Origin: a virus
Virus record (IMG/VR): IMGVR_UViG_3300005529_000013
Coordinates: 1 to 45,218 of that record
DNA length: 45,218 nt
Strand: one strand, 5' to 3'
The notes below the pieces were generated by a model, which saw nothing but the letters and a program-made list of their open reading frames with translations, did no database searches and was not told where the DNA came from. Shown piece after piece: positions 1 to 45,218 of this stretch; the stretch's first letter is position 1, and every line of letters begins with the position of its first letter. A program made the translations under genes and the position numbers.

Positions 1-100
1 CCAGGCGATTCCTGATCTCCTTCGGTACGCCGCGCTGAGCCAGCCAAGAGTTCCAGGTGTGGCGGAATGTGTGCCAGCAGACCCCATGCACCCGATCATC
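1..100. repeat. Left copy of 100-bp terminal direct repeat
   Basis: Bases 1-100 are identical to 45119-45218. The repeat lies inside the integrase coding sequence, and the integrase frame continues correctly across it, so the two ends join into one circle of 45,118 bp. An exact 100-base overlap is most simply a product of assembling a circular or circularly permuted molecule. True phage terminal repeats are possible but would not be expected inside int. Confidence 0.95.
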
Positions 101-18327: not shown

Positions 18328-18507
18328 ATGATTCCGATGCAGCAATACTCGCAGGCGGCAACCGACCTCGGCCTCTACGGTGGTCTCAAGTCGCAACTGG
18401 AAACCGAGGAGGAGCAGCGCAAGAAAAAGCTCCTCGCACAAGCGAACCGGCTCTCGTCCCCGATGGGCCTCGCCACCGCTACGTTGTTCCCGGGTCTCGG
18501 TGGCTGA
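18328..18507 (+). CDS. Small head-region protein, 59 aa
   Basis: The start at ATG 18328 follows GAGGA. Sequence MIPMQQYSQAATDLGLYGGL, a charged helix (SQLETEEEQRKKKLLAQANR) and a hydrophobic Gly-rich end (GLATATLFPGLGG). It lies between TerL and portal and overlaps the portal start. No family recognised; a structural or assembly role is inferred from position only. Confidence 0.6.
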   Translation: MIPMQQYSQAATDLGLYGGLKSQLETEEEQRKKKLLAQANRLSSPMGLATATLFPGLGG

Positions 18508-20245
18508 GACCAACAAATCACCGCGCCAGCCCACGGCGCGCGAGCAAGACATCCTCGACGAATCGTTCCGCGAGTTCGCGCAGCTGCAGACGTGGCGCCA
18601 CACCTTCGCCGCGCACTGGGAAGAAGTCGCGAACCTGATCCTGCCCGAGAGTCGCAATACTTTCGAGTACGGAAACTTCAACTGGCCCGGAGCGAAGAAG
18701 ACCGACCGCCAGATCGACGCGACCGGAATGATGGCGCTGCACAAGTTCGCCGCCATCTGCAATTCGCTCCTCACGCCGAAGAACATGATCTGGCACGGGC
18801 TGCGGGCCTCAGACGACTATGTGATGAAGGACCGCGCTACGAGGCTGTGGTTCGAGCAGGCGACGAAGATCCTGTTTCGCCTTCGCTACGCCCCATACTC
18901 CGGGTTCGCCGGCCAGATCACCGACTGCTACACGCAACTCGGAGCCTTCGGCACTAAAGGAATGTTCGTCGATGAATTCGACACGAAGCAACACCCCTTC
19001 CAAAAAGGGATTCGCTACAAGTCGATCCCGCTCGGGGAACTCTTCATCCGCCAGAACCACCAGGGGATAGTCGACGGCTTCATCCGCTGGTTCAGGCTCA
19101 CGGCGTTGCAGGCATACCAGCAATTCGGCGAGGAGAGCTTCCCGGAGATCCTGCGCGCTCCGCTCGCAGCGCAATCCCAGACGCCCTACAACTTCCTGCA
19201 CCGCGTCTGTCCCAGAAGCGATTACGACCGCGAACGCCTCGACGCCCGCGGGAAACCCTGGGCGAGCTACTACATCTCGATCGAGGGCAAGTCGCTTCTG
19301 TCCGAAGGCGGCTACCGCAAGTTCCCCGCGGCGATCTCGCGGTACTCGCAGGCTCCTGGGGAGGTGTACGGCCGCTCCCCGGCGATGATGGTGCTGCCGT
19401 CACTGAAGACCATCAACGCTCAGAAGCGCACGTTCCTGAAGCAAGGGCACCGCGCCGCAGACCCGGTGCTCCTCACCACCGACGATGGCATCTTGGACGG
19501 TGCCTCGATTCGGCCCGGATCGGTCAACAAGGGAGGGATGAGCCCGGACGGGAAGCCGCTGGTAGGCGTGCTCCCGTCCGGGAACATCCAGATCAACGAG
19601 AAGATGATGGAGATGGAAACCGCGTTGATCCAGGACGCGTTCCTCGTCAATCTCTTCCAGCTCGCTCTGAACCTGAAAGACCTACCGCAGATGACCGCCA
19701 CCCAGGTCATCGAGATCACGAACCAGAAGGGCATCCTCCTCGCCCCGACTGTCGGCAACCAGGAAGACGATTTGGGGCACATGATCGAGCGCGAGATCGA
19801 CATCGCCATGAACCTGGGGATGCTCCCGCCCATGCCGCCGAGGCTGCGCGAGGCGAAAGGGGAATACACAGTCGAGTACACCTCGCCCCTCTCGAAAGCA
19901 GCTCGTGCGCAGAATGCCTCGGGCTTCATGCGCGCGGTGGAGTTCTCGAAAGAGCTCATCAACATCACGCAGGATCAGTCCCACCTCGATTGGGCCGACA
20001 TGGAAGTCGCCATGCCGGAGATCGCCGACATCATGGGCGCGCCTCCCTCCTGGACCGCGAGCGAGGAGAAGATGCAGAAGAAGCGCGAGGCACGAGCCTC
20101 CGCCATGCAGGAGCAGATGCAGACCCAGCGCATGCCCGCAGAGGCCGCGATGATCAAGGCGAATGCGGTCGCCGCGAAGGCCGGGATGGTTCCGCCCGCT
20201 CAAGCTCCGGCACAACCCGGGCCGCCGCTCACGCAAGGGGCATGA
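18500..20245 (+). CDS. Portal (head-tail connector), podovirus type
   Basis: 581 aa from GTG 18500. Dodecameric ring through which DNA is packaged and ejected. Opening residues LDESFREFAQLQTWRHTFAA, HWEEVANLILPESRN, then TDRQIDATGMMALHKFAA and LTPKNMIWHGL match the head-to-tail connecting protein family (PF12236) of T7-like and BPP-1-like podoviruses. The C-terminal 60 residues are helical with Gln/Met-rich KKREARASAMQEQMQTQRMP, as in portal barrels. The length fits the 500-600 aa typical of the family. Confidence 0.92.
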   Translation: MAETNKSPRQPTAREQDILDESFREFAQLQTWRHTFAAHWEEVANLILPESRNTFEYGNFNWPGAKKTDRQIDATGMMALHKFAAICNSLLTPKNMIWHGLRASDDYVMKDRATRLWFEQATKILFRLRYAPYSGFAGQITDCYTQLGAFGTKGMFVDEFDTKQHPFQKGIRYKSIPLGELFIRQNHQGIVDGFIRWFRLTALQAYQQFGEESFPEILRAPLAAQSQTPYNFLHRVCPRSDYDRERLDARGKPWASYYISIEGKSLLSEGGYRKFPAAISRYSQAPGEVYGRSPAMMVLPSLKTINAQKRTFLKQGHRAADPVLLTTDDGILDGASIRPGSVNKGGMSPDGKPLVGVLPSGNIQINEKMMEMETALIQDAFLVNLFQLALNLKDLPQMTATQVIEITNQKGILLAPTVGNQEDDLGHMIEREIDIAMNLGMLPPMPPRLREAKGEYTVEYTSPLSKAARAQNASGFMRAVEFSKELINITQDQSHLDWADMEVAMPEIADIMGAPPSWTASEEKMQKKREARASAMQEQMQTQRMPAEAAMIKANAVAAKAGMVPPAQAPAQPGPPLTQGA

Positions 20246-20542
20246 TTGGGAGCGGCAGAATTCAACCGGGCTATCGCGTTCCTGTGGCGTCGCAAGCGTG
20301 CCTACAAGCTCACCTTCGGGTCGCTCTCGGGTCAGGAAGTCTTGATGGACCTCATCAAGTTCTGCCGAGCGACCACGACCTGCGCCGTTCCGGGGGATCA
20401 CGACAGGACCTTGATCGCCGAAGGCCGGCGCGAGGTGTTCCTGAGAATCACCGAGCATCTGCATCTGAATGCCGAAGAACTCTACGCGCTCTATGACGGG
20501 CGCAACGTGCAACGACTGATAGGAGAAACCGAAGATGCCTGA
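20246..20542 (+). CDS. Bbp19-like phage protein, 98 aa
   Basis: TTG start with AAGGGG upstream, directly after the portal stop. FLWRRKRAYKLTFGSLSGQE, VLMDLIKFCRATTTC, EGRREVFLRITEHLHLNAEE match the Bbp19 family, small proteins located after the portal gene in Bordetella BPP-1-like phages. Function unknown, probably in head assembly. Supports placing this genome with the BPP-1-type podoviruses. Confidence 0.75.
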   Translation: MGAAEFNRAIAFLWRRKRAYKLTFGSLSGQEVLMDLIKFCRATTTCAVPGDHDRTLIAEGRREVFLRITEHLHLNAEELYALYDGRNVQRLIGETEDA

Positions 20543-21425
20543 TCCGATACCAGCCCCTACGCCAGCCCCTACGCCAGCGCCAACCCCGACTACCCCGTGG
20601 TATCAGGGCGTCGATGGCGTCGACAGCGAGATGGTGGGCCACTGGACGAACGCCGGCTGGCACACGAAGTCCGCACCCGAGGTCGCGCGCGAAGCGACGA
20701 AAGCGTGGAAGGCTGCGGAAGCGTTCCGCGGCGTCCCCGCTGATCAACTGCTCCGCATCCCCAAAGACGCCTCCGATGAGGCCGGATGGAACGCCGTCTA
20801 CTCTCGCCTCGGCGCCCCGAAGGACGCAAAAGAGTACGACTTCTCAAGCGTCAAGTTCGCTGACGGCAGCGCTCTCGAAGGCGGCTTCGTCGAGCAGATG
20901 CGCTCGAAAGCCTTCGGTCTGCATCTGTCGAAGGATGCCGCCGTCTCGATGGCCCAGGAGTTCGCCAAATACCTGGACAGCGCCGAGACGACCGAGAAGA
21001 CCGAGCTCGCCGGCAAGCTCGCCGCGGAGAAATCCGCCCTCGCCAAGAACTGGGGACCGAACTTCGAGGCGAACAAGTTCGTCGCCACAAGGGCGGTTCA
21101 GGCCCTCGGCCTCGATCCAGAGATCGTGAACACGCTCGAGGGAGTGGTCGGCTACGCCAAGGTCATGGAGATGTTCCGCTCCATCGGCGAGCGGATCGGC
21201 GAGCACAAGTTCGTAACCGGCCAGCAGCCCGGGAACACGAACGGCGTGATGACCCGAGATCAAGCCGTCGCCCGCAAGCAAGACCTGATGAGCGATACCG
21301 TGTGGGCGAAGTCCTACATGGAGGGCGACAAGGCGAAGCAACGCGAGATGCTGGCGCTGAGCAGCATCATCTCCGGCATCGCCGTCCCGCCGGAGCTCAT
21401 GGAATTCGTCAACCAGCGGAGGTGA
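20535..21425 (+). CDS. Scaffolding-like head assembly protein
   Basis: 296 aa, starting after AGGAGA. A Pro-Ala-Thr repeat at the N-terminus (PDPIPAPTPAPTPAPTPT), encoded by two perfect 12-bp repeats at 20550-20573 plus a third degenerate one. A region WYQGVDGVDSEMVGHWTNAG then long charged helices (TTEKTELAGKLAAEKSALAK) follow. Acidic, helical and between portal and capsid genes, it fits a scaffolding protein. The five-gene cassette lies between it and the capsid gene. Confidence 0.7.
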   Translation: MPDPIPAPTPAPTPAPTPTTPWYQGVDGVDSEMVGHWTNAGWHTKSAPEVAREATKAWKAAEAFRGVPADQLLRIPKDASDEAGWNAVYSRLGAPKDAKEYDFSSVKFADGSALEGGFVEQMRSKAFGLHLSKDAAVSMAQEFAKYLDSAETTEKTELAGKLAAEKSALAKNWGPNFEANKFVATRAVQALGLDPEIVNTLEGVVGYAKVMEMFRSIGERIGEHKFVTGQQPGNTNGVMTRDQAVARKQDLMSDTVWAKSYMEGDKAKQREMLALSSIISGIAVPPELMEFVNQRR

Positions 21426-21612: not shown

Positions 21613-22004
21613 TGCCGTTCAGCACTCACGCTGACGTTTTCGACCAGCACCGCGCGTGGCAATGGCGCGCCGTGCGCGCGTCCATCGGTACGACGTGCGG
21701 ACTAATCATCATGGCGATGCTTGCGAAACGACCCAAGATCGGTCCGGCATTCGGCGACGGCTGCGACATCCTGCTCGACCGCGAGTGCAACCACGGCGAT
21801 CACTGCTTCTGCAAGGTCGTGTCTCCTGTCAGAAGGAACGGCGTGTGGGGACGGGCCGAGGTGGTCGGGACTGTGATCTCGGTGCGCGACAACCTCCGCA
21901 GCCTCGCCGACCACCTGAAGCTCTCGGATGCGGACCGAGTAGCCCTGTTCACGGAATTCCAGAAGTGGATACACAAGGACTACCGAGCGAGGTCCGAGAC
22001 ATGA
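21612..22004 (+). CDS. Hypothetical protein with Cys/His cluster, 130 aa
   Basis: GTG start at 21612 shares a base with the previous stop; an ATG at 21711 is an alternative start that removes the first 33 residues. Contains a possible metal site in DILLDRECNHGDHCFCKVVS, then beta-like stretches (RNGVWGRAEVVGTVISVRDN) and a helix (LSDADRVALFTEFQKWIH). It lies just before the cassette. No family recognised. Confidence 0.6.
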   Translation: MPFSTHADVFDQHRAWQWRAVRASIGTTCGLIIMAMLAKRPKIGPAFGDGCDILLDRECNHGDHCFCKVVSPVRRNGVWGRAEVVGTVISVRDNLRSLADHLKLSDADRVALFTEFQKWIHKDYRARSET

Positions 22005-22198
22005 AATTCATGCGCGACAAGTCGGTATGGTGCGAGCGCTGCCAAGCGCTGCGCACGATCACGGTGGATCTTGGGAAAGGCGTCGTTACGAACGCAGATA
22101 TGCCGCAACCGTGTCTGTGGCCCGCGGTCTGCACGGAGTTGCTGAAGTCTGGCGTCTTCGACCGGCCCTTCGGCGAGAAGGGCAAGGAAATCGCGTGA
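22001..22198 (+). CDS. Small zinc-ribbon-like protein, 65 aa
   Basis: ATGA overlap with the upstream gene. WCERCQALRTITVDLG has a CxxC, and a second pair of cysteines is in PQPCLWPAVCTELL. It looks like a small structural zinc protein. Its stop overlaps the first gene of the TPP cassette (GTGA), so it may belong to the cassette or be the last head gene before it. Confidence 0.6.
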   Translation: MKFMRDKSVWCERCQALRTITVDLGKGVVTNADMPQPCLWPAVCTELLKSGVFDRPFGEKGKEIA

Positions 22199-22776
22199 CG
22201 AAAGAGGAGTTATTCGCCTTCGAGTTGCAGGTCGCGCGGGAGTTCGAGGCCGGGAATATACGGGCGCCTATCCATCTCTCCGGAGGTAACGAGGAGGCGC
22301 TGATTGATCTGTTTCGCCTGATCATCCCATCGACCGACTGGGTGTTCTCGACCTATCGCTCGCACTACCACGCACTCCTGCACGGCATCCCGAGAGACCT
22401 GGTGATGCAGCAGATTCTCGCCGGTCACAGCATGAACCTGTCCTTCCCTGAGTACCGCTTCTTCACCTCGGCGATGGTCGGCGGAATCCTTCCGATCGCA
22501 ACCGGGGTAGCCCTTGCGCTCAAGCGACTCGGAGGGGCGAACGTCTGGTGCTTCGTCGGCGACATGGCGGCCAGCATCGGCGCGTATCACGAAGCGTCGC
22601 GGTACGCGGCCTGCCAAGACCTGCCGATCACCTTCGTAGTCGAGGACAACGGGATGTCCTGCGACAGCCCGACGAGCGATTGCTGGGGCACGGGTAGGTT
22701 CATCAAAGAGCGTCGCTATACCTATGAGCGGCAGTGGCCGCATAACGGGACCGGCAAGTGGGTCAACTTCGTATGA
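22195..22776 (+). CDS. Minimal thiamine-diphosphate enzyme subunit, E1-alpha-like
   Basis: 193 aa from GTG 22195. TPP-binding half of a two-subunit ThDP enzyme. Motifs follow E1-alpha order: GNEEALIDLF (30s), WVFSTYRSHYHALLHGIP (49-66), ILPIATGVALALKRLG (98-113), and the ThDP/Mg motif GDM (122-124) with EDN (150-152) at the usual spacing. The second Gly of GDG is Met and the second Asn is Gly, but the Mg-binding Asp123 and Asn152 remain. True E1-alpha is 330-400 aa, so this is a stripped-down core. It acts with the next gene's product. Confidence 0.85.
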   Translation: MTKEELFAFELQVAREFEAGNIRAPIHLSGGNEEALIDLFRLIIPSTDWVFSTYRSHYHALLHGIPRDLVMQQILAGHSMNLSFPEYRFFTSAMVGGILPIATGVALALKRLGGANVWCFVGDMAASIGAYHEASRYAACQDLPITFVVEDNGMSCDSPTSDCWGTGRFIKERRYTYERQWPHNGTGKWVNFV

Positions 22777-23291
22777 GCGACTATGCCAACGCTCTACGCG
22801 ACGCGATGGGCATGCTGGCCGAGAATCCGAAGACCCTGTTCCTCGGGCAGTCGGTGAAGTATCCGGGGCAGGCTGCGTTCAAGACGTTCGAGCTCGTCCC
22901 CATGGAGCGCCGAATCGAGATGCCCGTCGCCGAGGATTTCCAGATGGGGCTATGCGCCGGGCTTTCCCTGGAGGGCTATATCCCGGTCAGCTTCTACTGC
23001 CGCTGGGACTTCCTCCTGCTCGCAGCGAACCAGCTCGTGAATCATCTCGACAAGCTGCCGATGATGGGTTGGAAGCCGAAGGTCATTATCCGGGTCGCCG
23101 TGGGCCGGACCGCCCCGTTCAACCCGGGTCCTCAGCACCTCGGGGACTATACCGATGCCTTTCGCATGATGCTGAAGACGGTCAAGGTCGCGCAACTCCT
23201 GACCGCCTCCGACATCGTGCCATGCTACCGGGACGCCCTAGAGCACGAGGGCTCGACGATCCTAGTTGAGCGCATGGATCGCTATGGATAG
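22773..23291 (+). CDS. Minimal thiamine-diphosphate enzyme subunit, E1-beta/transketolase-pyr-like
   Basis: 172 aa; ATGA overlap with the alpha-like gene. Pyrimidine-binding domain of a ThDP enzyme. The cofactor-activating glutamate is Glu54 in RRIEMPVAEDFQMGLCAG, followed by GYIPVSFYCRWDFLLLAANQ and the E1-beta-like IIRVAVGRTAPFNPGPQHLG. The C-terminal transketolase domain that binds lipoyl partners in real E1-beta (about 330 aa) is absent. Together with the alpha-like protein it would make one ThDP site, most likely for carboligation or decarboxylation of a small ketone rather than pyruvate dehydrogenase work. Confidence 0.85.
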   Translation: MSDYANALRDAMGMLAENPKTLFLGQSVKYPGQAAFKTFELVPMERRIEMPVAEDFQMGLCAGLSLEGYIPVSFYCRWDFLLLAANQLVNHLDKLPMMGWKPKVIIRVAVGRTAPFNPGPQHLGDYTDAFRMMLKTVKVAQLLTASDIVPCYRDALEHEGSTILVERMDRYG

Positions 23292-24321
23292 CCTGCGCAT
23301 CGACTCGCACAAGCTGCACTTCCATCCCATGCGGGTGGCGCAGTGGGTCGCCGACAAGGACGATTGGGAAACCGCTCGCCGCATCTACCCGATCTACATC
23401 GAGGTGTCGCCGATCGGTGGTTGCAACCATCAATGCACGATGTGTGGTGTCGACTACGTGATCGAGGAGCACGCGAAGGGCAGCATTCCGCAGCTCGACC
23501 CGTGGCTCTACGGCGAGCGCATCATGGAGATGGGCGCGCTCGGCATCCGCTCGGTGATGTTCGCAGGCGAGGGCGAGCCGCTGCTGCACAAGCGCATAAA
23601 CGATCTCGTGCGAGCCACGCATCACGCGGACGTTCGCTCCGCCTTCACGACGAACGGGACACTGCTGCACAAGCTCGACCTCGCCGGAGTCTCCTGGGTC
23701 AAGGTATCGATCAACGGTGGAACTCGCGAGACCTACGCCAAGGTCCATCGCACGAAAGAGTCGGACTGGGACCGCGTGTGGGCGAATGTGTCGGACGCAG
23801 TACGCCGCAGCAATGGTTGCCAGATCGGCGTGCAGATGGTGCTGCTTCCTGAGAACCAGCACGAGGTCGAAGCGTTCGAGCGCAAGGCCGAGGAGGCTGG
23901 GGCTCACTACGTCGTCATCAAGGCGGTGAGCCAGCAGAAGTTCTCGATCAATCGACAGTACGAGAACTTCATCCCGATCGTCCCAGAATCGAAGCGCGCG
24001 ATCGTGCGCGCGGACTCGATGCGGACGCAGGAAATTCCTTACGACAAATGCCAGGCCACGCCGTACTTCTGGGCGTACTGGATGTCGAGCGGCGACCTCT
24101 ATAGCTGCTCGGCGTACCTGCTCGACGAGCGCTTCAACCTAGGAAATCTGAATACGCATACGTTCAAGCAGATTTGGCAGGGAGAGAAACGCCGCCAGAA
24201 CTGGGAGTACGTGAGGAAGCACCTAGACATCCACGAATGCCGGCTGAACTGCCGCATGGACAAGGTGAACCGCTACTTGACCGACCTGGAAGGCGGCGTG
24301 CCGAATGTCGATTTCATCTGA
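23284..24321 (+). CDS. Radical-SAM enzyme with SPASM-like C-terminus (first)
   Basis: 345 aa from ATG 23284, overlapping the end of the beta-like gene. Cys47-x3-Cys51-x2-Cys54 (GCNHQCTMC) binds the catalytic 4Fe-4S cluster, and GEGEPLLH is the AdoMet motif. A TIM-barrel-like middle (VKVSINGGTRETYAKV, GVQMVLLPENQHEVEAFERK) follows. C-terminal cysteines (YDKCQATPYF, DLYSCSAYL, HECRLNC) and FNLGNLNTHTFKQIW match a SPASM/twitch auxiliary cluster domain. Such enzymes modify peptides or sugars. The substrate is unknown; its place in the cassette argues for a shared small molecule or target. Confidence 0.92.
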   Translation: MDSLRIDSHKLHFHPMRVAQWVADKDDWETARRIYPIYIEVSPIGGCNHQCTMCGVDYVIEEHAKGSIPQLDPWLYGERIMEMGALGIRSVMFAGEGEPLLHKRINDLVRATHHADVRSAFTTNGTLLHKLDLAGVSWVKVSINGGTRETYAKVHRTKESDWDRVWANVSDAVRRSNGCQIGVQMVLLPENQHEVEAFERKAEEAGAHYVVIKAVSQQKFSINRQYENFIPIVPESKRAIVRADSMRTQEIPYDKCQATPYFWAYWMSSGDLYSCSAYLLDERFNLGNLNTHTFKQIWQGEKRRQNWEYVRKHLDIHECRLNCRMDKVNRYLTDLEGGVPNVDFI

Positions 24322-25342
24322 GCGGATCATCTTCGCGCCGCGGCGCCTGCCGCAGCTACAGCTTCCTGCCTCGCTGAACTATATCGGCGCGTTCCTGACG
24401 ATGGACTGCAACCTGAACTGCTCGTACTGCATCAACGACCCGGAGCAGGCCGGGGACCGGCGAGCGATCTTCCACGACAGCAAGGTCTTGAGACCGGAGC
24501 AGTGGGCACAGATTTTCGGCCGCATCCCGTTCCGCTCCGATCTCCCGATCACCCTCCAGGGCGGTGAGCCGATGATGTACTGGAAGGGCAAGGGCATCGG
24601 CATGATCCTGGAGAGGAGCGATAACTACTTCGACCTGCTGACGAACTTCGCCCTACAGCCGGAGGTGTTCGTCCGCAACCTGAACAACCAGCAGCACAAG
24701 CTCCAGCGCGGGACGAACGTAGGAATGCCGTATCAGTCGATCCGCGTGAGCTACCACGCGAAGGAGATGAACCGCGTCTGGAGGACAGGGATCGACGAGC
24801 TTGTCAGACGGTGCGAGCGTCTTCGAGATTTCGGCTTCATGGTGTCCCGTGACAGGGACAAGAGCGACGTATGCATCTACATGGTCGGGCACCCTGAGAA
24901 CGAATTGCCGAAGGTCGACGCCGACGTGATGTTCGAGGTGAAGCCCTTCCTCGGGATGCACGACGGGAAGCTCTACGGCGATTACATGTACCCGCACTCT
25001 ACCGATCTCGTGGAGCGCGGCCTCCATCCGACCTCGCTCAAGTGCGAATGCCGGACGACAGAATTGCTGATCGACCCAGTCGGAGACGTGTGGGATTGCC
25101 ACTATCACCTGTATCAAGCGTGGCTCGGGCGCCGAGAATATCGCCCGGTCGGTAACATGCTCGATCCCGCCTTTTCGATGGACAAGCTGGCGGAATTCCA
25201 CGCCTGCAACGACTACGGCAAGTGCGTCGGATGCGACACCAAGATCAAGAATAACCGCTTCATGTCCCTCATGCAAGGAAAGCCGCATACGTCAGTCGAG
25301 ATCCGGAACATCCGATGGCCGAAAGGATTGCCGCGTGTCTGA
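24305..25342 (+). CDS. Radical-SAM enzyme with C-terminal cysteine cluster (second)
   Basis: 345 aa from ATG 24305, overlapping the first radical-SAM gene by 17 bases. Cys35-x3-Cys39-x2-Cys42 (CNLNCSYC) and TLQGGEPMMY mark the radical-SAM core. The C-terminal part has KCECRTTELLIDPVGDVWDC, GNMLDPAFSMDKLAEFHAC and KCVGCDTK, enough Cys for an auxiliary Fe-S cluster. Little similarity to the first enzyme beyond the motifs, so they probably perform separate steps. Substrate unknown. Confidence 0.92.
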   Translation: MSISSERIIFAPRRLPQLQLPASLNYIGAFLTMDCNLNCSYCINDPEQAGDRRAIFHDSKVLRPEQWAQIFGRIPFRSDLPITLQGGEPMMYWKGKGIGMILERSDNYFDLLTNFALQPEVFVRNLNNQQHKLQRGTNVGMPYQSIRVSYHAKEMNRVWRTGIDELVRRCERLRDFGFMVSRDRDKSDVCIYMVGHPENELPKVDADVMFEVKPFLGMHDGKLYGDYMYPHSTDLVERGLHPTSLKCECRTTELLIDPVGDVWDCHYHLYQAWLGRREYRPVGNMLDPAFSMDKLAEFHACNDYGKCVGCDTKIKNNRFMSLMQGKPHTSVEIRNIRWPKGLPRV

Positions 25343-27185
25343 CCAGTTCGTGCACCAGAGCGACTTCGACAAGAACGCCGTCAAGAACGCGAGGAAGGAC
25401 CGCTCCGCAGACGTGCGGATGAAGAAGCTGCAGGCGCTCTACAAAGCCGAGCGCTGGGCCGAGATGAAGGCGCTCGCCCATGCCTACACGAAGGCGAACA
25501 AGCGCGACGGCGTGGCGTGGAAGGCCCTTGCCACCGCTCTTGAGATGCTGAAGAAGGACTCGCTCCCGGCGATGAAGGAGGCGATCAAGCTCCTCCCGAA
25601 TGATGCTCAGGCACACTTCAACCTAGGCAACGCCTACAAGTGGCACGACAAGCTGGACGAGGCGGTGATCTGCTACCGCAAGGCGATCACGCTCAAACCC
25701 GACTACGCCGAAGCGTACAGCAACCTTGGTAATGCTCTGCAGAACATGGGTCAGCCTTACGATGCGCTGAGAGCGTATTTCGAGGGCATCAAGATCGCGC
25801 CGCACCTGTTGAACATTCAGCTGAACATGGGGAATTGCTACTTCACGATCGGGCAGCAGGAGCGCGGGGCGCGGATGTACCAGATGGCGCTCGAGATCAA
25901 GCCGGACTTCATGGAGGTCCACAACGCGCTCATGTTCGGCCGTGACCTAATGGAAAAAACGACCGTCCAAAGCGCCTACGAAGACCGCCTGTCCTGGTCC
26001 GCGAAGTTCTCCGACAACGTCCCCTGGATGGCGCACGACAACGACCCGGATGAGAACCGGCGCCTTCGGATCGGCTACGTGTCGGCGGATATGCGCCAGC
26101 ACTCGGCAGCCTGCGTGTTCGGTCCGGCGCTCCTCTACCACGACAAGGATCAATTCGAAGTCTTCGCCTACAACAACAGCCGTCGTCAGGAAGACGAGTA
26201 CATGAAGAAGTTCAAGGAAAGCGTCGATCACTGGGTCGACGTCGCCGATGTTACCGACGACGATTGCGCGAAGATGATCCAGAAGGACAAGATCGACATC
26301 CTCGTCGACCTGTCCGGGCACAGCGGCGGGAACAAGCTCCTAACGTTCGCGCGCAAGCCCGCCCCAGTACAGATCACCGCCTGGGGCTATGCCACCGGGA
26401 CCGGCATGAAGGCGATGGACTACTTCTTCGCCGATGCTGTAGTGGTCCCCGAGGGCGAGCGCCAATTCTACAGAGAGCGAGTAGTCGACCTGCCGTGCTT
26501 GGTCGGCTCGTACTGGATGAAGCCATTCCCTGGCGTCTCTGATCTTCCCGCGAAGTTCGACGGCAATATCACCTTCGGCTGCCTGAACCGCTACGTCAAG
26601 ATTACGGAGAACACCCTGCGTCTGTGGGCGCGGGTGCTACGAGCCGTGCCGAACAGCGGCCTCGTCATGCGTTCGACAGAGTTCGCGAGCGAGTCGCACC
26701 GGGCGAGGGTGACGACCTTCTTCAGCGCGCTCGAGGTGACGGGAGATCGGCTGATCCTCCTACCGGCCGCCGAATCCTGGCACCAGCATCTTGAGACTCT
26801 GCGCGAAGTCGACATCTGCCTCGACCCGTACCCGCATGGCGGAGGAGTGACGACGCTCGAAGCGCTGATGATGGGATGCCCCGTTCTCACCCTGCGCTGG
26901 CCGACCATCGTAGGAAGGCTCTCGGCGTCGACACTGACCACGCTCGGCATGACCGACTGGATCGCCGAGTCGTTGGACGAGTACGTGCAGAAGGCGGTGG
27001 AGAAGAGCGCGAATCTGGATGCGCTCGCCGAACTTCGTAAAGGACTGAGATCGCTCTTCCAGTCCTCAATCATCGGCGACGGCCCTGCGTATTGTAGGGC
27101 GGTCGAATCTCAGTACCGCAGGTTGTGGCGGGAGTGGTGTTCGACGCGGGCGGTTAGCGTTGACACTAGTGAACTGGCGGCATAA
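25335..27185 (+). CDS. TPR-containing GT41 (O-GlcNAc transferase-like) glycosyltransferase
   Basis: 616 aa from GTG 25335. Transfers a sugar from a nucleotide donor to Ser/Thr or Asn side chains in the known family. Residues about 90-191 are three TPR units (AHFNLGNAYKWHDKLDEAVI, AYSNLGNALQNMGQPYDAL, NMGNCYFTIGQQERGARMY). The GT41 core then follows: LRIGYVSADMRQHSAACVF with the conserved His256, DILVDLSGHSGGNKLLTFAR, then KPAPVQITAWGYATGTGMKA. Next are FGCLNRYVKITENTL with the conserved Lys422 (Lys842 in human OGT) and the donor site DICLDPYPHGGGVTTLEAL. Residues known to be essential are present. Last gene of the cassette, before the capsid gene. Confidence 0.92.
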   Translation: MSDQFVHQSDFDKNAVKNARKDRSADVRMKKLQALYKAERWAEMKALAHAYTKANKRDGVAWKALATALEMLKKDSLPAMKEAIKLLPNDAQAHFNLGNAYKWHDKLDEAVICYRKAITLKPDYAEAYSNLGNALQNMGQPYDALRAYFEGIKIAPHLLNIQLNMGNCYFTIGQQERGARMYQMALEIKPDFMEVHNALMFGRDLMEKTTVQSAYEDRLSWSAKFSDNVPWMAHDNDPDENRRLRIGYVSADMRQHSAACVFGPALLYHDKDQFEVFAYNNSRRQEDEYMKKFKESVDHWVDVADVTDDDCAKMIQKDKIDILVDLSGHSGGNKLLTFARKPAPVQITAWGYATGTGMKAMDYFFADAVVVPEGERQFYRERVVDLPCLVGSYWMKPFPGVSDLPAKFDGNITFGCLNRYVKITENTLRLWARVLRAVPNSGLVMRSTEFASESHRARVTTFFSALEVTGDRLILLPAAESWHQHLETLREVDICLDPYPHGGGVTTLEALMMGCPVLTLRWPTIVGRLSASTLTTLGMTDWIAESLDEYVQKAVEKSANLDALAELRKGLRSLFQSSIIGDGPAYCRAVESQYRRLWREWCSTRAVSVDTSELAA

Positions 27186-27346: not shown

Positions 27347-28279
27347 ATGGCGAATCCAACAGACGCGGGACTGATCCCGCTGTACACCACGCAGTTCTCG
27401 ACCAACCTCGAGATGCTGCTCCAGCAGATGGGCTCCAAGCTCCGCGGCAAGACGCGCGAGGGCTTCCACGTCGGCAAGATGGCATCGCCGGTCAACCAGA
27501 TCGGCTCCATCGTCCTGAAGGCCCCCTCCGGCCGTTTCTCCCCGAAAGACCGCACCGATGCGAACTTCGTGCGTCGCTGGGTCTTCCCGCAAGAGGGTGA
27601 GATCGACCAGCTGATCGATGCCTTCGACGAGCTCCAGACGATCGTCGACCCGAAATCGCAGTACGCGCAGAACGCAGCCAACGCGGTGGGTCGCGCCTGG
27701 GACGACGCCCTGATCCTAGCCGCCACGGGCTCAGCCCAGATCGGCCAGGACGCGAACGGCCTGTCGACCGAGACCTTCAATACGACCAACTTCCAGATCA
27801 CCGCGACCTTCGGGGCTTCGGCCGCCAACGGCCTGACGGTGGCGAAGCTGATCGAGGCGAAGCGCGTCTTCCGCCACTACCACAACGACCTCGAGACCGA
27901 CATGCTGTGCGTCGTCATCGGGTCGCAGCAGGAGTCGGACCTGCTCAACCAGGTCCAGGTGGTGTCGACCGAGTTCAACGATCGGCCGGTGCTGACGGAC
28001 GGCAAGATTTCGCGCTTCCTCGGCTACGAGGTGGTCGTGTCCGAGCGCCTGCCGCAGACGACCGTGAACACGACCCGCGGCGTGCTGGCCTTCGTGAAAT
28101 CGGGCCTGTACCTGGGGATGTGGAAGGACGTCACGAACCGGGTCTCGATCCGAAACGACCTGTCGAGCGAGCCGTGGGATCTCTACACCTCGGTGATGTA
28201 CGGCGCGACCCGGCTGCAGCCCGGCAAGGTGCTGCAAATCCTCTGCGCCGATACCACCGGCGCGGACATCACGCCGTAA
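27347..28279 (+). CDS. Major capsid protein
   Basis: 310 aa, HK97-like fold expected. Begins MANPTDAGLIPLYTTQFSTN, LEMLLQQMGSKLRGKTREG, and later EIDQLIDAFDELQTIVDPKS, QNAANAVGRAWDDALILAA, which match the capsid protein family of BPP-1-like podoviruses. The C-terminal part (RGVLAFVKSGLYLGMWKDV) is typical of the capsid A/P domain end. Strong binding site AAGGG, with a hairpin just upstream. Followed by a cementing-like protein. Adjacent to the GT41 gene, so it is the nearest candidate glycosylation target, but this is inference. Confidence 0.9.
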   Translation: MANPTDAGLIPLYTTQFSTNLEMLLQQMGSKLRGKTREGFHVGKMASPVNQIGSIVLKAPSGRFSPKDRTDANFVRRWVFPQEGEIDQLIDAFDELQTIVDPKSQYAQNAANAVGRAWDDALILAATGSAQIGQDANGLSTETFNTTNFQITATFGASAANGLTVAKLIEAKRVFRHYHNDLETDMLCVVIGSQQESDLLNQVQVVSTEFNDRPVLTDGKISRFLGYEVVVSERLPQTTVNTTRGVLAFVKSGLYLGMWKDVTNRVSIRNDLSSEPWDLYTSVMYGATRLQPGKVLQILCADTTGADITP

Positions 28280-44972: not shown

Positions 44973-45218
44973 CTAAGCTATTGCTGCAGCCGCGTTCTCT
45001 TCTCTGCCGTCAACTCCCTGTGACAGGATCGTGTCGATAACCGCTGCATATGGGCGCAGGCTGTCGATGTCGAGATGCGTGTACCTGTCTGCGTTGTCGT
45101 CGCTGACGACCCACCCGCCCAGGCGATTCCTGATCTCCTTCGGTACGCCGCGCTGAGCCAGCCAAGAGTTCCAGGTGTGGCGGAATGTGTGCCAGCAGAC
45201 CCCATGCACCCGATCATC
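44973..45218 (-). CDS. int: Tyrosine recombinase integrase, C-terminal part (same gene as 1-931)
   Basis: This is the end of the integrase gene, cut by the contig ends. It reads through HTFRHT, the Trp that replaces the third catalytic His, and the nucleophilic Tyr of DRYTHL, then ends in a short Ala-rich tail (ENAAAAIA) at the stop 44973-44975. Bases 45119-45218 duplicate 1-100, so only 44973-45118 add new sequence. The gene converges on the late lysis genes, with 157 bp of non-coding DNA between them, where attP would be expected. Confidence 0.95.
   Translation of the reverse strand, partial: DDRVHGVCWHTFRHTWNSWLAQRGVPKEIRNRLGGWVVSDDNADRYTHLDIDSLRPYAAVIDTILSQGVDGREENAAAAIA
45119..45218. 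repeat. Right copy of 100-bp terminal direct repeat
   Basis: Exact copy of bases 1-100. Removing this copy gives the unit genome. The reading frame of int is unbroken when 45118 is joined to 1. Confidence 0.95.

Follow-up and report, generated by a model that had tools for sequence, protein, structure and literature searches.

The viral sequence IMGVR_UViG_3300005529_000013, analysed here from position 1 to position 45,218 (the whole 45,218-nucleotide stretch is called the window), carries five genes as a single overlapping unit between a small cysteine-rich open reading frame (ORF) and the gene for the major capsid protein (MCP). These genes encode the two halves of a minimal thiamine diphosphate (ThDP) enzyme, two radical S-adenosylmethionine (radical SAM) enzymes designated rSAM1 and rSAM2, and a family 41 glycosyltransferase (GT41) that carries tetratricopeptide repeats (TPRs). 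We consider it reasonably likely, if well short of certain, that they form a virion-protein glycosylation cassette occupying the pre-capsid slot of a podovirus and using a sugar that has a two-carbon (C2) branch or is otherwise unusual. We infer the capsid target from gene position and the sugar chemistry from gene context. The cassette and its proposed acceptor are as follows.

22195..22776, + strand: ThDP-alpha (PP domain), minimal E1 type; GTG start, 193 aa; Pfam E1_dh 1.5e-14, NCBIfam PDH_E1_alph_y 1.7e-22
22773..23291, + strand: ThDP-beta (PYR domain), lacking a C-terminal domain; ATG start, 172 aa; weak Transket_pyr match, 2e-5
23284..24321, + strand: rSAM1, radical SAM enzyme with a reduced SPASM domain; ATG start, 345 aa; Radical_SAM 2e-17, SPASM 2e-7
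24305..25342, + strand: rSAM2, second radical SAM enzyme; Radical_SAM 7e-7
25335..27185, + strand: TPR-GT41 glycosyltransferase, SPINDLY/OGT-like, with the TPRs N-terminal to the catalytic domain; Glyco_transf_41 (PF13844) 1.2e-49 and several TPR models
27347..28279, + strand: MCP of the Phage_capsid_2 type, the proposed acceptor; PF19821 4.6e-52

The enzymes named by a first-pass annotation of this DNA are all present, with Pfam matches and intact, uninterrupted ORFs, and chance ORFs are ruled out by the homologues, 35-60% identical, that many contigs carry. Every junction overlaps, as that annotation had also stated, by 4 (ATGA, between alpha and beta), 8, 17 and 8 bases in turn; its figure of 18 bases is corrected to 17 and its order differs slightly. 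The second overlap grows to 26 bases if rSAM1 begins at an alternative TTG codon at position 23266. At the upstream end, the ThDP-alpha start overlaps the cysteine-rich ORF by 4 bases (GTGA). Overall and third-position GC contents of the cassette are those of the adjoining head genes.

Evidence for a virion target comes from the positions of GT41 genes in other phages. Scans with single GT41 or rSAM2 sequences returned nothing or one weak match, and alignments were needed instead. The GT41 alignment scan yielded 21 loci in 20 contigs (compared loci and contigs are labelled L plus a number), and 24 GT41 genes were compared in all. Eleven of these lie immediately or almost immediately 5ʹ of an MCP gene, and the MCPs concerned belong to two unrelated capsid types, Phage_capsid_2 in six cases and HK97 in five (L014, L144, L118, L121, L122). 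The GT41 genes of L014 and L144 sit between portal/protease-type genes and the MCP, and that of L120 is one gene 3ʹ of a major head protein. Elsewhere (L110, L112, L113 and L239) the GT41 gene lies 3ʹ of long fibre-like genes, most of which share an N-terminal pattern, and one phage (L087) has two GT41s, one adjacent to the MCP and the other linked to a fibre gene. The MCP-adjacent enzymes fall in one clade (local support 0.998) apart from the fibre-linked ones, a clade that also includes four GT41s without demonstrated adjacency to an MCP. The genetic mark of a phage capsid glycosylation system, a phage glycosyltransferase gene linked to the MCP gene, is therefore present.

The enzyme itself appears equipped for protein glycosylation. 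SPINDLY (SPY) is the best PDB match of the window GT41 (2.7e-104), and SPINDLY and OGT likewise combine TPRs with a GT41 catalytic domain that has a catalytic lysine and an N-lobe His-Ser pair. The essential catalytic lysine of SPY is K665, and S496 is also a catalytic residue (PMC9715652). Lys422, His256 and Ser257 of the window protein are invariant across the 24 phage GT41s. With its catalytic residues intact, the enzyme is predicted to transfer a sugar to protein side chains. However, SPY Tyr744 and Thr748, whose roles were taken from PMC9715652, align with His and Val in the phage enzyme, and its donor sugar may therefore differ from that of SPINDLY.

The surroundings of the cassette are those of a podovirus late operon, as first annotated: a terminase, a podovirus-type head-tail connector, a scaffold-like gene and the Phage_capsid_2 MCP flank it. 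The genome is probably complete, since it ends in exact terminal repeats. The remaining landmarks of the window are listed below.

1..100 and 45119-45218, no strand assigned: direct terminal repeat, exact, 100 bp, seen in the sequence
18380..20245, + strand: portal / head-to-tail connector; PF12236 1.4e-94
20535..21425, + strand: scaffold-like head gene that marks the left side of the cargo slot; phrog_3742 and phrog_458 matches
22001..22198, + strand: 65-aa cysteine-rich backbone ORF that bounds the insertion; counterparts in L159, L165, L103 and L105
30005-31918: tail-spike-like gene a few genes 3ʹ of the MCP; phrog_7458 and phrog_19253

A survey of 80 contigs with related MCPs indicates that the gap between the scaffold-like gene and the MCP serves as a cargo slot. 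In the window the gap spans 5,922 bp, whereas relatives usually have 100-700 bp, and the slot is usually empty among sister phages that share the MCP type; for example, in L159 (MCP 83% identical) the small backbone ORF stands immediately ahead of the MCP gene. The slot holds a GT41 gene in L103, L104, L105, L158 (the L087 phage) and L165. In L103, a split ThDP enzyme with TPP_enzyme_N/M/C domains in the layout of acetolactate synthase (ALS) and YerE (L103:2-1440) lies shortly 5ʹ of the GT41 and MCP genes, where it replaces the E1-type pair. L234:6521-9302 carries a methyltransferase together with a TPR protein that matches GT9 (heptosyltransferase). The uncharacterised family DUF2827 occupies the slot at L213:5388-6518, L216:3975-5108 and, by sequence similarity, L217:2356-3492, and may be a virion-protein glycosyltransferase. 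A further slot ORF with a ‘DADMG’ motif (L160-L162 and L198; about 220 aa at L160:3941-4591 and L198:6215-6877), which has no Pfam match, looks by eye like a small GT-A enzyme. Separately, an ORF between GT41 and MCP at L165:4598-5209 resembles a GIY-YIG endonuclease by eye.

The two ThDP genes encode a compact version of an E1-type enzyme. ThDP-alpha keeps the GD-X28-N ligands for Mg and ThDP and a YRxH motif; relative to the PP motif GDG-X26-NN, the window has GDM...DN, such that the Asp and the last Asn are kept and the second Gly and first Asn are altered. The catalytic Glu of the PYR domain is invariant in ThDP-beta, within MPVAE or TPVAE. No E2-like gene was found among the genes around the cassette, and ThDP-beta stops after its PYR domain, so that both the E2 lipoyl partner and the E1-beta C-terminal domain of a pyruvate dehydrogenase (PDH) complex are missing. 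The activated C2 unit must consequently go elsewhere. Split E1-type alpha/beta pairs that occur with activated-sugar genes and without E2, namely AviB1/AviB2, Pau11/Pau12 and KbDH-alpha/beta (alphaKADH2) (PMC12247030, PMC4425429, PMC10338323), offer a precedent, because such E1-like pairs (AviB1/B2, Pau11/12, KbDH) have been proposed or shown to place a C2 branch on ketosugars (PMC12247030, PMC4425429). The Pau11/12 proteins are 325 and 345 aa long, compared with 193 and 172 aa in the window, and unlike alphaKADH2 pairs, the phage pair has no C-terminal domain on its beta subunit and is linked with genes for radical SAM enzymes and GT41. In yersiniose synthesis, YerE likewise uses ThDP to equip a nucleotide ketosugar with a two-carbon branch; it is of the decarboxylase/ALS type whereas the window pair is of the E1 type, and L103 has an enzyme of the same broad domain type as YerE.

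Both radical SAM families have an invariant CX3CX2C motif. For comparison, the full SPASM pattern comprises seven cysteines (CX9-15GX4C ... CX2CX5CX3C ... C); rSAM1 retains CX13GX4C and one C-terminal CX3C (PF13186). Its closest PDB match is BlsE, a sugar-nucleoside enzyme. No SPASM Pfam match was obtained for rSAM2, which has five invariant C-terminal cysteines in a 17-member family alignment. The predicted rSAM2 model (pLDDT 80.6) resembles radical SAM structures, and a fold search with it returned many radical SAM enzymes, all at low TM-score, which name no substrate.

Parts of the cassette recur together across a wide range of genomes. ThDP-alpha relatives occur in 523 viral stretches, and of the 80 loci that were read, nearly all also have ThDP-beta. 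Among 98 ThDP loci, a radical SAM gene lies within 4 kb at 25 and a Zn-alcohol dehydrogenase gene at five, with both at none and neither at 68. Many of these 68 loci belong to large phages that carry a gene of the dTDP-4-dehydrorhamnose 3,5-epimerase family upstream of ThDP-alpha; the family containing this gene (RmlC-type) is shared by 45 loci and that of DegT aminotransferases by 22, along with genes for short-chain dehydrogenases/reductases (SDR). The radical SAM genes stay with the ThDP pair in phages, bacteria and archaea. The viral contig L124 has rSAM1-rSAM2 followed by ThDP, a 735-kb phage has the order beta-rSAM-alpha, and two metagenome-assembled genomes, from Deltaproteobacteria (L096) and Desulfobacterales (L099), have GT2-rSAM2-rSAM1-ThDP, although such contigs may be misassigned. 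In L099:3853-10935, one run of genes for a TPR protein, GT2, rSAM2, rSAM1, the ThDP pair and a third radical SAM enzyme represents a cellular version of the block, located near genes that resemble lptA/lptB/rpoN by sequence. GT41 searches of the L099 and L096 genomes gave matches to the TPR region only. The GT41 scan was seeded with three sequences, two of which had been found through ThDP, so that these two cannot count as independent evidence that GT41 and ThDP occur together, whereas L110, L113 and L114 can. The possibility that these genes are never found together elsewhere, which had been named as one part of a refutation of the pathway idea, is contradicted by the wide recurrence of sub-blocks.

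Small phages in which the ThDP pair occurs also provide clues to the sugar. There, the pair is accompanied by a GmhA/HldE-like isomerase, kinase and nucleotidyltransferase, homologues of enzymes of the ADP-heptose pathway that join ThDP, radical SAM and GT41 genes in related phages; in L110 they are contiguous with GT41. These matches score below the curated equivalog cut-offs, and the sugar may therefore not be a standard heptose. The corresponding genes are absent from the window, and the nucleotide sugar is presumably supplied by the host. The cassette is accordingly not self-sufficient, because the sugar-activating genes of its relatives are lacking from a probably complete genome. The earlier proposal that the five products build an unusual group and fix it on a virion protein is strengthened by the GT41 gene positions in unrelated phages.

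A four-step scheme could unite these observations. The host would supply a nucleotide sugar, probably of the ADP-heptose kind, a proposal based on the GmhA/HldE-like genes that relatives carry and the window lacks. The radical SAM enzymes would then oxidise or epimerise a sugar carbinol, giving a keto group; this role is a guess prompted by the mutually exclusive occurrence of the Zn-dehydrogenase and by sugar-active relatives such as BlsE. Next, ThDP-alpha/beta would decarboxylate a 2-oxo acid and add the two-carbon unit to the ketone to yield a branched sugar. Finally, the TPR-GT41 enzyme would move the sugar to a side chain, most likely Ser or Thr, of newly made MCP. This last transfer is the best-supported step of the scheme, and the two preceding it would represent the most likely chemistry. 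The two-carbon branch, also suggested at first annotation, gains support from the described E1-like pairs, the frequent RmlC-type neighbours and the ALS/YerE-type enzyme of L103.

Several observations weigh against this interpretation. The complete five-gene arrangement was found nowhere but in the window. Profiles built from 27 kinase, 48 nucleotidyltransferase and 29 SIS (isomerase) relatives matched no window ORF. Genes may lie close to the MCP because the cargo slot there is permissive, and not for a functional reason. A Thr-rich QTT..TT loop in the MCPs of six GT41-bearing sister phages was considered as a glycosylation site and dropped; we claim no site, because relatives that lack GT41, L159 among them, have the loop threonines as well. 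Lastly, a fold search with a fused ThDP homologue ranked transketolase first, a result that is not decisive because it may only reflect a shared single-chain PP-PYR build.

That fold ranking bears on an unlikely alternative, in which the two ThDP subunits act as a minimal transketolase. They would make a longer-chain ketose phosphate (heptulose or octulose) as the entry to a nucleotide-sugar pathway of the heptose type, leaving the glycosylation cassette the same but its sugar unbranched. GmhA/HldE/HddA/HddC-like neighbours are frequent, and GT9 heptosyltransferase-like genes lie beside the ThDP pair in L124 and, by motif, in L003 and L098. However, sequence profile scores are higher for PDH E1 (80 bits) than for transketolase (24 bits), many large-phage loci combine the pair with RmlC, SDR and DegT ketosugar genes with no heptose genes detected, and the downstream heptose genes are absent from the window. 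Moreover, a 155-kb phage contig (L031:12130-13328) has a true split transketolase pair between radical SAM genes, next to an E1-type pair. Branching is strongly favoured over transketolase action because of the ALS/YerE-type enzyme at the equivalent place in L103 and the ketosugar neighbours. A different peptide-centred explanation, which we regard as very improbable, holds that the radical SAM enzymes modify a ribosomally synthesized and post-translationally modified peptide (RiPP)-like substrate or the capsid protein itself, with the sugar genes as separate passengers. rSAM2 does match SPASM/RiPP maturases, weakly by sequence and several times by fold, but the overlapping ORFs leave no space for a precursor gene, the best solved relative of rSAM1 acts on a sugar nucleoside, and the radical SAM genes keep company with the ThDP pair. 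The 65-aa upstream ORF was rejected as a cassette-specific precursor because this backbone gene has counterparts in sister phages both with and without the cassette.

The remaining alternatives concern the acceptor. Sugar genes of large marine phages have been proposed to alter host surface glycans (lipopolysaccharide or O-antigen) and so block superinfection; PMC7029224 reads pelagimyophage glycosyltransferase and rfaE genes in this manner and mentions radical SAM cassettes, and in bacteria, cyanophages and the 735-kb phage, homologous ThDP and radical SAM genes belong to loci of the polysaccharide type. For the window we judge this improbable, given that GT41 enzymes are soluble protein glycosyltransferases, that the cassette is part of a head operon and GT41s in different phages keep to capsid or fibre genes, and that no polymerase, flippase or membrane glycosyltransferase is seen in the cassette. 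We assign a similarly low likelihood to an OGT/SPINDLY-like action of GT41 on host cytosolic proteins that remodels the host late in infection. Eukaryotic TPR-GT41 enzymes do act on intracellular substrates (PMC9715652), but dedicated acceptors better fit the repeated pairing with a single structural gene and the presence of two GT41s with different partners in one phage. The first-pass option of a host protein changed during lysis is not supported.

A virion-protein glycosylation cassette would extend a known process. In the mycobacteriophages Che8 and Rita, phage glycosyltransferases put glycans on the MCP (cited in PMC11256854 from Freeman et al. 2023), and in the related phage Maravista the glycosyltransferase genes lie close to the 3ʹ genome end (PMC11256854), in contrast to the MCP-adjacent gene of the window. 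The principle would be the same, and because phage capsid glycosylation is established, the enzyme set of the window would be a variation. To our knowledge, no GT41, ThDP enzyme or radical SAM sugar chemistry takes part in the Che8/Rita system. We found no paper in the open-licence literature that describes the ThDP/radical SAM/GT41 combination.

More broadly, and more tentatively, we see close to an even chance that phages without common descent have modular kits for coat glycosylation in common, in which a dedicated TPR-glycosyltransferase encoded beside its own virion protein is joined by exchangeable tailoring enzymes (radical SAM, two kinds of ThDP enzyme, Zn-dehydrogenase) to place custom branched sugars on capsids or fibres during infection. 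If our interpretation holds, the pairs of GT41 and MCP genes would be directly testable in E. coli, and a ThDP family of more than 500 viral contigs, most without a functional name, would gain a function. The known means of virion glycosylation would be widened, and some small phages would be seen to spend several kilobases on the sugar chemistry of their coat, in which an OGT/SPINDLY-type enzyme is paired with the capsid protein.

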